Shown in pieces: positions 15,334-20,954 of a DNA stretch of 22,826 nt. The DNA comes from a virus: positions 1-22,826 of IMG/VR virus record IMGVR_UViG_3300021182_000069; one strand, 5' to 3'. The position numbers and the translations under genes were made by a program. Every line of letters starts with the position of its first letter. Position 1 is the first letter of the stretch. The notes under the pieces were generated by a model. That model was not told the origin of the DNA and did not search any database. It worked only from the letters and a program-made list of their open reading frames with translations.

Positions 15334-15363
15334 ACCGCTAACCCATCCCAGGCTAATCGAGAA

Positions 15364-15410
15364 GTAGACGACCTGTAAGAATCGAAACCTTACAGGTCGT
15401 CTACATTTTC
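15364..15410 (+). terminator. Intrinsic terminator
   Basis: A perfect 16-bp stem, GTAGACGACCTGTAAG (15364-15379) with its complement at 15389-15404, 9-nt loop, followed by ATTTTC. It ends the P1 transcript. Confidence 0.9.
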
Positions 15411-15473
15411 GTTTCTACAAGGACTAAAAAGTTTTGCCCAAAAATTCCCCCGGAGGAAAAATTGGGTATATCA

Positions 15474-15501
15474 TCGCAGAAAATACACGGTCTATAATGA
15501 G
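15474..15501 (+). promoter_or_regulatory. Promoter-like element P2
   Basis: TCGCAG, then AAAATACAC, GGTC and TATAATGAG, with -10 at 15493-15498. No coding sequence follows; the downstream unit is the structured RNA at 15499-15605. Confidence 0.75.
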
Positions 15502-15605
15502 AAGGAGCCTACATACGAAAAAGATGGCTTAATACAGCGTTAATGATAGCACCGTGTAATGACGCGCAAAACATAAATCGATCGCGATATTCCTTCTCAT
15601 TTTTT
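15499..15605 (+). ncRNA. Candidate structured RNA A with closing terminator stem
   Basis: GAGAAGGA (15499-15506), directly after the P2 -10 box, is perfectly complementary to TCCTTCTC (15591-15598), which is followed by ATTTTTT. Between them are smaller hairpins: CGTGT-AATG-ACGCG (15553-15566) and ATCG-ATCG-CGAT (15577-15588). No reading frame longer than a few codons has a ribosome-binding site. The arrangement (promoter, short RNA closed by its own terminator) recurs at 16149, 16279, 20612 and 20827. Function unknown. Only two internal hairpins are clear here, with no tandem repeats as in the later RNAs. Confidence 0.6.
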
Positions 15606-15610
15606 GCCTT

Positions 15611-15638
15611 TCGTGAGAATTACATCCCCTATAATGAG
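15611..15638 (+). promoter_or_regulatory. Promoter-like element P3
   Basis: TCGTGAGAATTACAT, CCCC and TATAATGAG, -10 at 15630-15635. TTGCCT lies at 15604-15609. It drives the 38-residue membrane protein gene. Confidence 0.75.
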
Positions 15639-15661
15639 CAGCCCCTACGAAAGGAAAAGAA

Positions 15662-15778
15662 ATGAAGGTTTTTGCGAAAGTGGTTGGAGCGTTTATGTTC
15701 ATTCCGGCATTCATCATACTGATGTTATTCGGATTAATACTATTCACCAACCTGCTGCTTTCCACCACCCCGCACTGA
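15662..15778 (+). CDS. Very small membrane protein (38 aa)
   Basis: MKVFAKVVGAFMFIPAFIIL, then MLFGLILFTNLLLSTTPH, ending at TGA 15776-15778. A good ribosome-binding site (GAAAGGAAAAG) and promoter P3 (24 bp from the -10 box to the Shine-Dalgarno region) precede it, and a terminator follows at 15804, so this is a complete single-gene unit. It has a short basic N-terminus and one long hydrophobic segment (residues 7-34). A larger overlapping frame (15604-15855) begins upstream of the promoter and is not credible. Could be a small holin-like or membrane-disturbing peptide; function unknown. Confidence 0.7.
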   Translation: MKVFAKVVGAFMFIPAFIILMLFGLILFTNLLLSTTPH

Positions 15779-15803
15779 CGTTCCTCACTAGAACGCTCAA
15801 AGG

Positions 15804-15832
15804 CAAGATGCCCTTGCAAGGCGTCTTGTTTT
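15804..15832 (+). terminator. Intrinsic terminator
   Basis: CAAGATGCC (15804-15812) pairs with GGCGTCTTG (15820-15828, one G-U pair), 7-nt loop, then TTTT. The T-tract merges with the start of promoter P4. Confidence 0.8.
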
Positions 15833-15859
15833 CGCAAAAATTACACGCCCTATAATGAA
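15832..15859 (+). promoter_or_regulatory. Promoter-like element P4
   Basis: TCGCAAAAATTACAC, GCCC and TATAATGAA, -10 at 15851-15856. It departs from the others only in the final base (GAA for GAG). It drives the gene at 15890. Confidence 0.75.
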
Positions 15860-15889
15860 CCCCTAGACCCCACTTTATAAGGAGAAATC

Positions 15890-16084
15890 ATGGACCCCAT
15901 CGAGACCCCCGAGACTGACGAAATCAGCTTTGGCAAAACACTTGTAAAAGACTACGCAGAAACTCTTGCCACATCGGCAGGACTTCTTACCGGAGTTGTA
16001 CTGGTGGCATTTGCCTTCGAGCAGATTCAGAAAGTCAGAGCTCGACGCAAAGCCAAGAAGAACCAGATCAAGACCGAGAGCTAG
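15890..16084 (+). CDS. Small membrane protein (64 aa)
   Basis: Site AAGGAGAAATC before ATG, promoter P4 upstream. Acidic N-terminus (MDPIETPETDEISFGKTLVK), one membrane segment at 27-44 (ATSAGLLTGVVLVAFAF), then a very basic tail (VRARRKAKKNQIK), which suggests the C-terminus stays in the cytoplasm. It resembles the protein at 17932 in layout. Function unknown. Confidence 0.75.
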   Translation: MDPIETPETDEISFGKTLVKDYAETLATSAGLLTGVVLVAFAFEQIQKVRARRKAKKNQIKTES

Positions 16085-16123
16085 AGTTCAGACCTATCGT
16101 CCCACAAGGACTTTAGGTTTGCC

Positions 16124-16151
16124 TCGCACAATTTACATGGCATAGAATGAG
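16124..16151 (+). promoter_or_regulatory. Promoter-like element P5
   Basis: TCGCACAATTTACAT, GGCA and TAGAATGAG, -10 (TAGAAT) at 16143-16148, with TTGCCT at 16119-16124. It leads into structured RNA B. Confidence 0.65.
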
Positions 16152-16248
16152 AAGGACATTAAACTACAACGTTTGAATGAACACTACCCGTTAACCACGG
16201 ATGCAGTTTGTTGATACCGAACGATTAGAAATGCTCTTCTTTAATTTT
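16149..16248 (+). ncRNA. Candidate structured RNA B with closing terminator stem
   Basis: GAGAAGGACATT (16149-16160) pairs with AATGCTCTTCTT (16230-16241): 11 of 12 positions pair, two as G-U. TAATTTT follows as U-tract. Inside lie three hairpins: GTTT-GAAT-GAAC (16171-16182), CCGT-TAACC-ACGG (about 16188-16200) and GTTTG-TTGATAC-CGAAC (16206-16222). A reading frame starting at 16201 passes through this RNA and the next promoter and has no ribosome-binding site. Function unknown; same layout as RNA A, D and F. Confidence 0.58.
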
Positions 16249-16253
16249 GCCTC

Positions 16254-16281
16254 TCGCAGGAATTACATGTCCTCTAATGAG
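16254..16281 (+). promoter_or_regulatory. Promoter-like element P6
   Basis: TCGCAGGAATTACAT, GTCC and TCTAATGAG, -10 (TCTAAT) at 16273-16278, TTGCCT at 16247-16252. It leads into structured RNA C and then the gene at 16390. Confidence 0.68.
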
Positions 16282-16376
16282 AGAGATGTTGTCAGAACCC
16301 CCACCGGTTCCCATAGCAAAAGATCCGCGCAAGCGAATCCGCATCCCCTCACCCTTTTTATTTGTCTCTCATTTTT
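16279..16376 (+). ncRNA. Candidate structured RNA C or leader with closing terminator stem
   Basis: GAGAGA (16279-16284) pairs with TCTCTC (16365-16370), followed by ATTTTT. Inside are GAACC-loop-GGTTC (16295-16310) and a hairpin at 16322-16339: GAT, C x A mismatch, CGC/GCG, loop GCAA (GNRA tetraloop). The latter shares the 'outer stem, 1x1 mismatch, 3-bp inner stem' plan of the RNAs at 20.6-20.9 kb. The gene at 16390 starts 13 bp after the U-tract with no other promoter, so the element may be either a free RNA or a terminator-type leader controlling that gene. Confidence 0.5.
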
Positions 16377-16389
16377 GAAAGGAGTAGTC

Positions 16390-16521
16390 ATGCCCTATCG
16401 TTATGTCGAGCCCAAGAAATATGGTTTTTGGCGTTTCATCTTTGACGTCTGCATGGTTTGCATTACATGTGGTTTTTGGCTCATTTGGATATTCGTCCGT
16501 GAGATGCGTCGACAGCGATGA
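16390..16521 (+). CDS. Small membrane protein (43 aa)
   Basis: Starts at the ATG at 16390 after GAAAGGAG (8 bp spacing). MPYRYVEPKKYGFWRFIF, then DVCMVCITCGFWLIWIFV and the basic end REMRRQR. One membrane segment at about 14-36, with three cysteines (VCMVCITCG) inside or next to it. A longer in-frame start at 16201 is rejected because it crosses promoter P6 and has no ribosome-binding site. It overlaps the next small gene by ATGA. Confidence 0.7.
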   Translation: MPYRYVEPKKYGFWRFIFDVCMVCITCGFWLIWIFVREMRRQR

Positions 16522-17473: not shown

Positions 17474-17872
17474 ATGAATCAACACGTTGAGAAGATTAAG
17501 AAACACTTGCAGGAGAACAAGACGGTTTATATTGCTGGGGCAGGATGTTTGGTTGTCGCAGGAATTACATTCCTTATAATGAGATCCAGTTCAGGATCAA
17601 CTATCCTCCGTGATTCGATCGTGGAGGCCCAGCGTGATTCGATCGTGCTGGGGAAGAACGCGACCCTGAACCAGGTCTCATATTTTGCATCAGAACGTCA
17701 AGGTCCTCCATCCTGGGTTGTTCGTTGTATCGAGACTGGAAACGTCTTTACATCGCAACGATCAGCGGCTTTTGCAATGGAGATTTCTGAGAGCAATATC
17801 TCACGGCAACTTAACGGTCTTAAGGATCAAGCCGACGGTTATCATTTTGAACGCCTATGCATGGCGGCGTAG
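17474..17872 (+). CDS. Membrane-anchored NUMOD1/HTH-like protein, paralogue 1
   Basis: 132 residues, AGAAGAG site before ATG. Basic helix MNQHVEKIKKHLQENK, membrane segment at 18-36, a linker with a duplicated RDSIV, and a C-terminal domain at 85-127 (CIETGNVFTSQRSAAFAM, then SESNISRQLNGLKDQADGYH). That domain follows the NUMOD1/IENR1 pattern ('G..F.S...AA...I..S.IS..LNG....GYHF'), a helix-turn-helix usually attached to homing endonucleases; no nuclease domain is present. The paralogue at 20202 has the same layout. Bases 17556-17583 contain an intact copy of the repeated promoter, coding for part of the membrane segment. Function: possibly DNA binding at the membrane (inference). Confidence 0.72.
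   Translation: MNQHVEKIKKHLQENKTVYIAGAGCLVVAGITFLIMRSSSGSTILRDSIVEAQRDSIVLGKNATLNQVSYFASERQGPPSWVVRCIETGNVFTSQRSAAFAMEISESNISRQLNGLKDQADGYHFERLCMAA
17556..17583 (+). promoter_or_regulatory. Promoter-like element P8 inside a coding sequence
   Basis: TCGCAGGAATTACAT, TCCT and TATAATGAG-type end (-10 TATAAT at 17575-17580), entirely within the gene at 17474-17872. It would start an RNA covering only the 3' two-thirds of that gene, including the HTH-like domain. Confidence 0.6.
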
Positions 17873-18270: not shown

Positions 18271-18585
18271 ATGTCTGACACAGTACCGATCCCTGTTAAC
18301 TATGGAAATAAATATACATCTTACAAAGAAAGGGAACGACGTAGGATTCAGAGAGAAAACAAACAGAATCTCTTTGTTAGGTTTTACTTAAAGCCGAGTT
18401 TGGTCCTAGTTGGTAGTGTTATGGGTATTGCCACGATTACTGTCTTGGTCAAGAAGAACCAGAAACTGAACAAGGATCTCAACGTAGCCCTCGGAGGTTA
18501 CCTGACCCTTGCCAACGAACTCGCTATCGAGCACGGCTATACCCTTGGGGATTTCCTCAACAAACTTGAAAAGGCTGGATCATGA
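18271..18585 (+). CDS. Membrane protein with basic N-terminus (104 aa)
   Basis: ATG after CGAAGGAG. A highly charged N-terminal region (KERERRRIQRENKQN), one membrane segment at 42-60 (PSLVLVGSVMGIATITVLV), and an amphipathic C-terminal part (LANELAIEHGYTLGDFLNKL). No promoter motif lies between the terminator at 18203-18229 and this gene. Read-through or an unrecognised promoter must supply the RNA. It is first in a run of overlapping genes to 20005. Function unknown. Confidence 0.72.
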   Translation: MSDTVPIPVNYGNKYTSYKERERRRIQRENKQNLFVRFYLKPSLVLVGSVMGIATITVLVKKNQKLNKDLNVALGGYLTLANELAIEHGYTLGDFLNKLEKAGS

Positions 18586-18872
18586 ACGGATTCGATCCTA
18601 TATCGGCATACCCGGCATACGATGGTATGACTCCAATGTCCTCTGAGGAGCATCGTATTCAGATGGATGCCATATCAAATCTTATCGCAGACATGGGTAT
18701 TCAGCATGCTACACCAGAAGAAACACTCCGTGTAGTGCGGCACTTTATGGTTGTCGCTGATGCTGAGAAGCATAACCTAGACTGGAAACAGTCGGCTGTT
18801 GACCATGGGATTGCCCAACTCAAGACAAAATATGAAGGAACCTCAAATGACGGATCACAACGATCCAAATAA
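18582..18872 (+). CDS. Unknown soluble protein (96 aa)
   Basis: ATG overlaps the upstream stop (ATGA). N-terminus MNGFDPISAYPAYDGMTPMS, then helices (EHRIQMDAISNLIADMG, PEETLRVVRHFMVVADAEKH). No membrane helix. The C-terminal 26 bp overlap the next small gene. No family recognised. Confidence 0.68.
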   Translation: MNGFDPISAYPAYDGMTPMSSEEHRIQMDAISNLIADMGIQHATPEETLRVVRHFMVVADAEKHNLDWKQSAVDHGIAQLKTKYEGTSNDGSQRSK

Positions 18873-20201: not shown

Positions 20202-20597
20202 ATGAATACTAAAGTTGAGAAAATCAAGAACCACTTCAAAGAGAACAAGAAACTCTACATTGGACTAGGAATTGGCGCTGTTGTTGGTGTCGCCGGTACT
20301 ATTATCTTCAAGAAAAACGACGGAAATCAAGCGATCGTGGATTCATTCAAACTTGTCAATTGGAAATCTCCGCATACGTCTCAATTGATACAAGTCGCAA
20401 TTCCTCGACGAGGGAACTCTGGAAATGCGATTCAGTGTGATCAAACCGGGACTATATTTCCGAGTCAGAACCTCGCGGCGAAAGAAATGGACTTAAATGC
20501 TGGAAATCTTTCGCAGCAACTGAATGGAAAAATTCCGTCTGTAAATGGCTTTACTTTTACAAAACTTACCGAAAGCGGTGATCCCATCGCAGAATAA
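20202..20597 (+). CDS. Membrane-anchored NUMOD1/HTH-like protein, paralogue 2
   Basis: 131 residues from the ATG at 20202. This start aligns with its paralogue at 17474 (MNTKVEKIKNHFKENK against MNQHVEKIKKHLQENK). An in-frame ATG at 20187 would add five residues; a start at 20118 precedes promoter P10. Membrane segment at 19-36 (YIGLGIGAVVGVAGTIIF), variable linker, then a C-terminal domain at 79-121 (CDQTGTIFPSQNLAAKEM, DLNAGNLSQQLNGK, NGFTFTKL) of the NUMOD1/IENR1 helix-turn-helix pattern. The last codons overlap promoter P11. No nuclease motif. Confidence 0.72.
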   Translation: MNTKVEKIKNHFKENKKLYIGLGIGAVVGVAGTIIFKKNDGNQAIVDSFKLVNWKSPHTSQLIQVAIPRRGNSGNAIQCDQTGTIFPSQNLAAKEMDLNAGNLSQQLNGKIPSVNGFTFTKLTESGDPIAE

Positions 20598-20614
20598 ACA
20601 TAGCCTATAATGAG
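20587..20614 (+). promoter_or_regulatory. Promoter-like element P11
   Basis: TCGCAGAATAAACAT, AGCC and TATAATGAG, -10 at 20606-20611. Its first bases are the last codons of the gene at 20202. It leads into structured RNA D. Confidence 0.78.
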
Positions 20615-20718
20615 AATCCTCTGGGTCAGTCATTGCGACAGGCTTGATTGGCGTCAGTCATTGCGACGGACCCCATCTTACCCATCATTGTGATGAGTAA
20701 TCAGAGGGTTCTCATTTT
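20612..20718 (+). ncRNA. Three-hairpin structured RNA D (AUUGY loops)
   Basis: The closing stem GAGAATCCTCTG (20612-20623) with CAGAGGGTTCTC (20702-20713) has 12 pairs, one G-U, and is followed by ATTTT. Inside are three tandem hairpins, 27-28 nt apart, with cores GTCATTGCGAC (20629-20639 and 20657-20667) and ATCATTGTGAT (20684-20694). The third core differs from the others by changes on both sides of the stem (G-C to A-U), so pairing is kept. Each core is flanked by a short outer stem with different sequence in each unit. P11 gives the promoter. No reading frame is apparent. A four-way junction fold is predicted; function unknown. Confidence 0.78.
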
Positions 20719-20721
20719 AGG

Positions 20722-20815
20722 ATTAGTGTTTGGATCCGCCGATAAGGCAGATCTGCAGGCCCGCCGATAAGGTAGACTTGCTTGGCCCGCCGATAAGGTA
20801 GACCAACAAACTACA
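20722..20815 (+). ncRNA. Three-hairpin structured RNA E (GAUAA loops)
   Basis: Three tandem hairpins, 25-26 nt apart: GATC, C x A, GCC-GATAA-GGC, GATC (20733-20753); GCAGGCC, C x A, GCC-GATAA-GGT, GACTTGC (20755-20781); TTGGCC, C x A, GCC-GATAA-GGT, GACCAA (20782-20806). Outer stems differ but stay paired. A weak closing stem GTTTG/CAAAC (20728-20732 with 20807-20811) may join them. There is no separate promoter or U-tract: the 3' side runs into P12. It may be transcribed by read-through from P11, or be part of a longer nine-hairpin RNA. Confidence 0.68.
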
Positions 20816-20829
20816 TGTCCTATAATGAG
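20802..20829 (+). promoter_or_regulatory. Promoter-like element P12
   Basis: CCAACAAACTACAT, GTCC and TATAATGAG, -10 at 20821-20826. The upstream half (TCGCAG in other copies) is replaced by the end of RNA E, while TACAT and CC-TATAATGAG are kept. It leads into structured RNA F. Confidence 0.68.
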
Positions 20830-20940
20830 AACCCAGTATCTGGATCACCGTTATGCGGAGATCTGAATGGTCACCGTTATGCGGAGACCGTCTTGGCCAC
20901 CGTTATGCGGAGACCAACAGATACTGGGTTCTCATTTTTC
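20827..20940 (+). ncRNA. Three-hairpin structured RNA F (UUAUG loops)
   Basis: The closing stem GAGAACCCAGTATCTG (20827-20842) pairs perfectly over 16 bp with 20918-20933, followed by ATTTTTC. Three tandem hairpins at 26-nt spacing: GATC, A x A, CCG-TTATG-CGG, GATC (20843-20863); GGTC ... GACC (20869-20889); TTGGCC ... GACCAA (20893-20917). The core is identical in all three, the outer stems change and, apart from one C x A mismatch in the third, stay paired. P12 precedes it. The gene at 20979 follows with the leader box but no new promoter, so RNA F could also be a terminator leader for it. Not a family I recognise. Confidence 0.8.
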
Positions 20941-20954
20941 TGCCTCTAAATTTC

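Follow-up and report, generated by a model that had tools for sequence, protein, structure and literature searches.

The question raised by this locus is what is encoded at positions 15499-16376 of the window, by which is meant the whole 22.8 kb stretch of IMG/VR virus record IMGVR_UViG_3300021182_000069. The virus, a soil phage, is distant kin of Gordonia phages (Deejayvirinae), and the region belongs to a run of small genes and intergenic stretches that follows the tail genes. Three short RNAs, each with its own promoter, a closing stem that starts with GAGA, internal hairpins and a U-tract, had been proposed here from the sequence (the original prediction). The answer reached below is that these three units probably belong to a set of six or more short non-coding RNA genes in this phage, which would be transcribed from promoters of a phage-encoded RNA polymerase.

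Each of the three proposed RNAs is preceded by a promoter, as had been claimed. Unit 1 (15497..15606, with a U-tract at the 3' end) follows the promoter TCGCAGAAAATACACGGTCTATAATGAG at 15473..15503, unit 2 (16147..16249) the promoter at 16123..16153, and unit 3 (16277..16376) that at 16253..16283, with scores of 40.9, 33.6 and 38.2 bits, respectively, in a position-specific scoring matrix (PSSM). The same matrix places promoters ahead of three further units, at 17555..17585 (36.5 bits; unit 17579..17687), at 20586..20616 (40.4 bits; unit 20610..20721) and at 20801..20831 (17.5 bits; unit 20825..20941); the last of these promoters has lost the upstream TCGCA element. All of these features are on the + strand.

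In all six units the 5' start is complementary to a stretch located about 95-110 nt downstream, which is followed by a U-tract. For the test of this closing stem the 5' head was kept, the downstream sequence was shuffled 2000 times, and stem and U-tract were scored together. The stem of unit 1 has 11 pairs (0/2000 shuffles as good), that of unit 2 extends over 12 positions with one mismatch (p=0.0015), and that of unit 3 has 8 pairs (AUGAGAGA/UCUCUCAU; p=0.0095). The GAGA-start closing stem with U-tract was in this way recovered in all three. The pair count originally given for unit 2 stands; for units 1 and 3, where 8 and 6 pairs had been given, the counts are higher because the pairing reaches upstream of GAGA into AU(G). 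The stems of the 17579, 20610 and 20825 units were each equalled in 0/2000 shuffles. A short-loop, G+C-rich hairpin right before the U-tract, as in an intrinsic terminator, is not present in the units; the paired arms of the closing stems are about 70-85 nt apart and GA/UC-rich.

Five other promoters in the window (15009, 15622, 15843, 17890 and 20140; + strand, located with the PSSM) lead into protein genes. They gave p=0.26-0.59 in the same closing-stem test and serve as an internal negative control. Stems of this kind might arise by chance, when GA-rich starts meet a pyrimidine-rich complement before T-runs, and unit 3, with a stem that reaches p 0.0095 when taken alone, and unit 1, with its unstructured interior, would fit such an origin. 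It is nevertheless contradicted by the statistics of the whole unit set, in which pairing is seen at all six non-mRNA promoters and at not one of the five that drive mRNAs, and by a swapped-head control in relatives (see below), and is regarded as very improbable.

Whole-unit folding energies were compared with those of dinucleotide shuffles, a check that had been proposed together with the original prediction. All three noted units fold below their shuffles (unit 1: z -2.2, 4/300; unit 2: z -2.7, 3/300; unit 3: z -4.3, 0/300), and the z values of the 17579, 20610 and 20825 units are -4.5, -4.5 and -8.4, respectively. The interior of unit 3, with its C x A mismatch and GCAA-capped hairpin, is significant also without the closing stem (z -3.6, 1/300), so that the predicted internal hairpins hold for this unit; in units 1 and 2 they do not convincingly exceed chance (see below). 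At the level of sequence, the observation of the units is confirmed, and the reading as independently started, self-terminated short RNAs on one plan is supported. The number of such RNAs, previously at least five, is now at least six, the unit at 17579-17687 having been missed. The idea of a single family was not retained, because the units have only the promoter and closing-stem plan in common, and their interiors differ and are exchanged from phage to phage, which is not what one homologous RNA family would look like. Discrete transcripts of about 100 nt are predicted from the units.

The three units outside the noted region contain repeated hairpins, in addition to the stems and folding energies given above. 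In the 17579 unit two hairpins share CGUGAUUCGAUCGUG, and a 15-nt internal repeat is apical in both (0/200 shuffles). The 20610 unit carries UCAUUGCGA hairpins with a 15-nt repeat, and the 20825 unit three CCGUUAUGCGGAG hairpins with an 18-nt repeat. The 17579 unit and its promoter are located entirely inside the open reading frame (ORF) 17474-17872, so that a protein gene and an RNA gene apparently overlap here; the paralogue of this ORF at 20202-20597 is without the promoter and hairpin-RNA element. At 20738-20803 there are three tandem CCGAUAAGG hairpins without a promoter or closing stem of their own, which overlap the site where the promoter of the 20825 unit has lost TCGCA. Before unit 1, at 15355-15414, a near-perfect 60-nt palindrome followed by a T-rich stretch makes a strong hairpin that resembles a terminator.

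Several candidates were rejected. The 30-codon ORF 16286-16378, which runs across unit 3, is not regarded as a gene, being without a properly spaced Shine-Dalgarno sequence and of a length usual by chance. The UCAUUGCGA hairpin was tried as a family signature and gave 186 matches, only six of them with a promoter; it is a common repeat, and the motif alone is not diagnostic. Pairs of GCCGATAAGG were never accompanied by a promoter and mostly represent repeat-coding sequence, and a resemblance of the UCAUUGCGA complement to both promoter ends was dropped as unsupported. Close TCATTGCGA pairs were seen in well over 100 unrelated IMG/VR viral stretches, apparently as a widespread repeat unrelated to the promoters.

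The promoter element covers about 30 bp and reads TCGC[AG]-N6-ACA-N5-TATAATGA[GA]; on its upstream side the PSSM breaks off sharply at TCGCA, and in the short-form consensus the core after N5 is TATAATGAG. The PSSM was built from 325 instances, nearly all from relatives, and CG, ACA and TATAATGA were fixed in it by the seed. It detects eleven sites in the window, every one of them on the + strand; none scores above 10 on the - strand, a Markov control gave 0, and six of the eleven lead into the self-closed RNA units. The sigma-70 -10 hexamer TATAAT, itself part of the seed, is exact in nine of the eleven window sites. There is no signal of the -35 hexamer, expected at a spacing of 16-18 nt, in the PSSM, where TCGCA stands instead at a fixed site closer to the core. 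The '-10 box' that had been placed directly before each unit is thus present as TATAAT, not as an ordinary -10 promoter, and is part of the ~30-bp element that tracks a phage polymerase.

From a sigma-70 promoter, transcription is expected to start 6-8 nt downstream of TATAAT. The closing helix begins at nt 1-4 after TATA in 43/43 units, which were scored from that end and chosen partly for pairing near the start; when selection was made on the variable part only, 34 units were found vs 9.3 expected, many with UCUC or UCUCAU as the 3' partner. This position of the helix argues for an RNA start at or before the GAG behind TATAAT, and closing stems only 0-3 nt from TATA are incompatible with a sigma-70 start site. 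Despite its TATAAT, the promoter does not look like one of the sigma-70 type. The units could still be small RNAs of the host polymerase, made from sigma-A promoters with the help of a phage activator bound at TCGCA/ACA. The perfect TATAAT in the core would agree with this, and the host enzyme is, as a matter of general knowledge, the default for most actinophages; yet the -35 hexamer signal is missing, the closing stems need a start within the would-be discriminator, and the motif tracks the polymerase gene across Gordonia and Lactococcus hosts. We regard host transcription as improbable.

Which enzyme might use the promoter instead is suggested by the relatives, which encode a protein of about 900 amino acids (aa) near the right genome end, usually annotated as helix-turn-helix or hypothetical protein. 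It corresponds to PHROG 4291 (phrog_4291), 'RNA-dependent RNA polymerase' (E=0). The motif (G)ADFDGD, of the metal-binding type DxDxD, does not vary in alignments of 15 and of 67 relatives. A first AlphaFold model from 5 sequences was too poor (predicted local distance difference test, pLDDT, 61), and one built by AlphaFold2 on 67 sequences (pLDDT 80) took its place. Residues ~226-707 of the latter model match QDE-1 (Z 18), plant RDR2 (Z 18.6) and gp62 of phage P74-26 (Z 14), and Z 14 was also obtained against gp64, the solved phage polymerase of P74-26's relative; Foldseek matches had E values of 2e-9 and 4e-7. As judged from these fold matches, the phrog_4291 protein is built around a core of the two-barrel single-chain RNA polymerase type, and DNA-dependent RNA synthesis by it is predicted. 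The polymerase was found in 250 phage records, from phages of Arthrobacter, Gordonia, Streptomyces, Lactococcus and others. The homologue in Lactococcus phage 1706, orf75 (L178 2082-5171), is annotated as 'structural protein', which hints at a virion polymerase. Within the window, a 96-aa ORF at 18582-18872 is 52% identical to polymerase residues 542-633, and may be a free-standing fragment or a paralogue; comparable partial matches were seen in two further records (G001, G023).

Promoter and polymerase occur together. The promoter pattern was present in 17 of 20 records fetched with the polymerase alone, on one strand per record, and in 0/30 records fetched with an unrelated motif, among which there was one marginal match to the polymerase model and none that was convincing; a control with the reversed pattern gave 0 in all record sets. 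When only the records of 50 kb or more among the first 50 are considered, the promoter was present in 12/13 with the polymerase vs 0/5 without it. A recognisable promoter variant (TTTTACAT..RCTATAGTAGAA) stands before small genes also in Lactococcus phage 1706, which has a low-GC, unrelated host and a polymerase of 38% identity; there are about 9 copies at L174 24380-31080, several of them right behind a T-run. Judging by co-occurrence and by the 1706 variant, it is the polymerase, not the host, that the promoter goes with. Recognition of the promoter by the phage's own polymerase is accordingly included in what we hold to be the probable explanation as a whole, the link being drawn from co-occurrence and structure prediction.

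The relatives also show what kinds of RNA stand behind such promoters. About 45 promoter-linked self-closed RNAs scored above the 99% quantile of the swapped-head control. In the loci around a 257-aa gene (window 16685), 23 of 29 such units are located no more than 2.5 kb upstream of that gene. Three kinds of interior can be described: a class with a T-arm-like hairpin, tRNA-like RNAs, and arrays of hairpins.

The T-arm RNA, exemplified at 2622-2747 of the fetched Rhodococcus ReqiPoco6 locus (L427), consists of AGACAC[GU]AAUG, a T-arm-like hairpin and a UUU[CA]GUUGG hairpin. Among 14 sequences, 16 of 18 pairs have changes on both sides, the covariation is 0.71 vs 0.24 in shuffles (0/500), and a pseudoknot ACGAA/UUCGU covaries to ACUAA/UUAGU. 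As far as aligned sequences can tell, this shows the class to be under selection at the RNA level. It is absent from Rfam. The T-arm model (R1) had 26 matches in the fetched loci, some of which overlap. Searching for the T-arm sequence without regard to the promoter gave 10 viral stretches in IMG/VR, 8 of them with the promoter upstream, and 12 bacterial stretches, none with the promoter. The best R1 match in the window had 7 bits (E ~0.5, filters off), so that the window units are not members of this class.

The tRNA-like RNAs of Gordonia phage Jodelie19 (L150) and of ReqiPoco6 (L427) have D and T arms, a GCAA tetraloop as anticodon loop and the acceptor stem within the closing stem. Their Rfam tRNA scores are 28.6 bits, just below the gathering score of 29, and 37.4 bits, respectively; a unit in L149, likewise with D and T arms, has 41.1. 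The RNA at L427 2202-2275, annotated as 'tRNA-OTHER' in ReqiPoco6, is a promoter-driven tRNA-like RNA. The L150 and L427 units have the GCAA tetraloop and a U-tract end where a tRNA would have a 7-nt anticodon loop and 3' CCA. The hairpin arrays consist of 2-4 near-identical hairpins, and in nine units of relatives the internal repeat was matched in at most 1/60 shuffles. The hairpin CCGUUAYRCGGAG, present three times in the 20825 unit of the window, is found three times in Captrips and in a 60-kb relative as well. Regulation of host or phage mRNAs by base pairing of the loops, as by antisense small RNAs, would be in keeping with the size, own promoter and terminator of the units, which by general knowledge fit bacterial small RNAs; against it, there are tRNA-like elements and highly structured ones among the interiors, in which few stretches are left free, and this function is considered quite improbable.

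Other searches set the scope of these comparisons. With megablast the window had no direct nucleotide relatives, and distant blastn matches to the unit region covered at most 16% of it and did not resolve the RNA bodies. Rfam, run on the window and the scanned relatives, gave no family for the units, the window matches being sub-threshold and by chance. ARAGORN found no tRNA in the window, and the window's own units are not tRNA-like.

Units at corresponding places in relatives, which the original prediction had proposed to look for, were found next to another landmark. A gene for a 43-aa membrane microprotein (16390..16521, + strand) follows unit 3 directly; its homologues were collected with tblastn from about 37 fetched loci. 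Many of the small genes 3' of the tail genes are predicted to encode membrane proteins in the relatives. In about 12 of the ~37 loci a promoter and a self-closed RNA are located directly upstream of the homologue, and the RNAs are of differing kinds. L017 and L138 carry the T-arm RNA there, L141 and L043 have hairpin arrays, and in L004, L072, L047 and L086 there are other self-closed RNAs. Many other homologues are preceded by a short leader of mRNA type or by no unit of this sort.

Several observations weigh against independent RNA genes made by a phage polymerase. The U-tract of unit 3 abuts the Shine-Dalgarno sequence of gene 16390, which makes a role as a cis leader possible. Without the closing stem, the interior of unit 1 is no better than chance (z +1.1) and that of unit 2 only marginal (z -1.6, 24/300). 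The partial choice of start-site units by their pairing, given above, belongs here as well. The window, which is a fragment, is without the polymerase gene, and sequence homology of the polymerase to SPbeta YonO was not detected (BLASTP E 1.9; hhalign probability 1.1% vs a single YonO sequence).

The first two of these points, together with the ~12 homologues of gene 16390 that have a self-closed RNA in the same position, are what the main rival builds on. In that case the units, or at any rate unit 3, would be cis-acting 5' leaders, attenuators or insulators, terminating one transcript and governing how the next gene is expressed, with the closing stem as a long-range terminator and an interior of little function. 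The relatives speak differently: the T-arm class has covarying pairs and a pseudoknot, the tRNA-like interiors keep their D and T arms, hairpins are duplicated into arrays, identical interiors occur in differing contexts, and many 16390 homologues have an mRNA-type leader or no unit. A role in cis is therefore rated as unlikely, if the most serious of the alternatives.

The reading preferred here, that of separate RNA genes under promoters of the phage polymerase, can be put together as follows. The two-barrel polymerase, with its gene outside the fragment, would transcribe the RNA units and several small protein genes, with a start no more than about 3 nt away from the A after TATA, as the pairing suggests. 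The GA-rich 5' start would then pair with its complement before the U-tract and clamp the ends of the RNA, which probably aids stability and a termination presumed to occur at the U-tract. The interior would be a variable payload, exchanged in one genomic slot. As to function, the likeliest possibility, put forward only tentatively, is that the RNAs act in trans early in infection by binding or titrating host proteins of RNA handling or defence. Turnover in the slot, mimicry of the tRNA elbow without decoding, and multivalent hairpins are as expected of decoys or titrators. Equally tentative is the broader idea that phages with a two-barrel polymerase are equipped with a set of exchangeable small decoy RNAs (tRNAs lacking an anticodon, T-arm RNAs with a pseudoknot, arrays of hairpins), made from promoters of that polymerase at the start of infection, against RNA-targeting or RNA-dependent defences of the host; if true, it would be the RNA counterpart of anti-defence protein islands. 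More generally, the analysis predicts, in testable form, a promoter for a widespread phage RNA polymerase family (the 250 phage records mentioned above), and points to an unannotated layer of phage non-coding RNA in well-known isolates that can be grown on laboratory hosts, with a new covarying class and anticodon-less tRNA mimics.

The systems closest to this one are those of phage single-chain polymerases. In P23-45 two polymerases each have promoter motifs of their own (PMC10770324). For SPbeta YonO the promoter was reported as undetermined, and a start was located upstream of an unannotated non-coding RNA (PMC5467207). The present system shares with gp64/gp62 of P23-45/P74-26 and with YonO a single-chain polymerase with DFDGD, a QDE-1-like fold and dedicated promoters; it differs in the promoter sequence and in the many single-RNA units placed among small genes. 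In 40-90 kb of SPbeta the promoter PSSM gave nothing convincing (best 5.8 bits); the assignment of the motif accordingly does not extend to YonO.

Among the RNAs, some of those in the relatives resemble YrlA and bacterial Y RNAs as well as viral tRNA-like structures in having D and T arms inside an end-joining stem and a U instead of a CCA end. They differ in the anticodon arm, which is capped by a GCAA tetraloop; the units of the window itself are not tRNA-like, and no Rfam match to Y RNA or YrlA was obtained in the window or the scanned relatives. With type III antitoxin RNAs and CsrB-type sponges there is, from general knowledge, the likeness of 2-4 near-identical hairpins per short RNA, but here the hairpin sequence differs from RNA to RNA, and every one has a phage promoter to itself. 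Like the phi29 pRNA, as generally known, the units are short, structured and phage-encoded with paired ends; unlike it, they have no sequence in common with it, occur as several differing RNAs per phage and are not tied to packaging genes. Phage RNA polymerase regulons and phage small RNAs are thus known kinds; what is new is the RNA class of the relatives that has no match in Rfam, and the promoter prediction.
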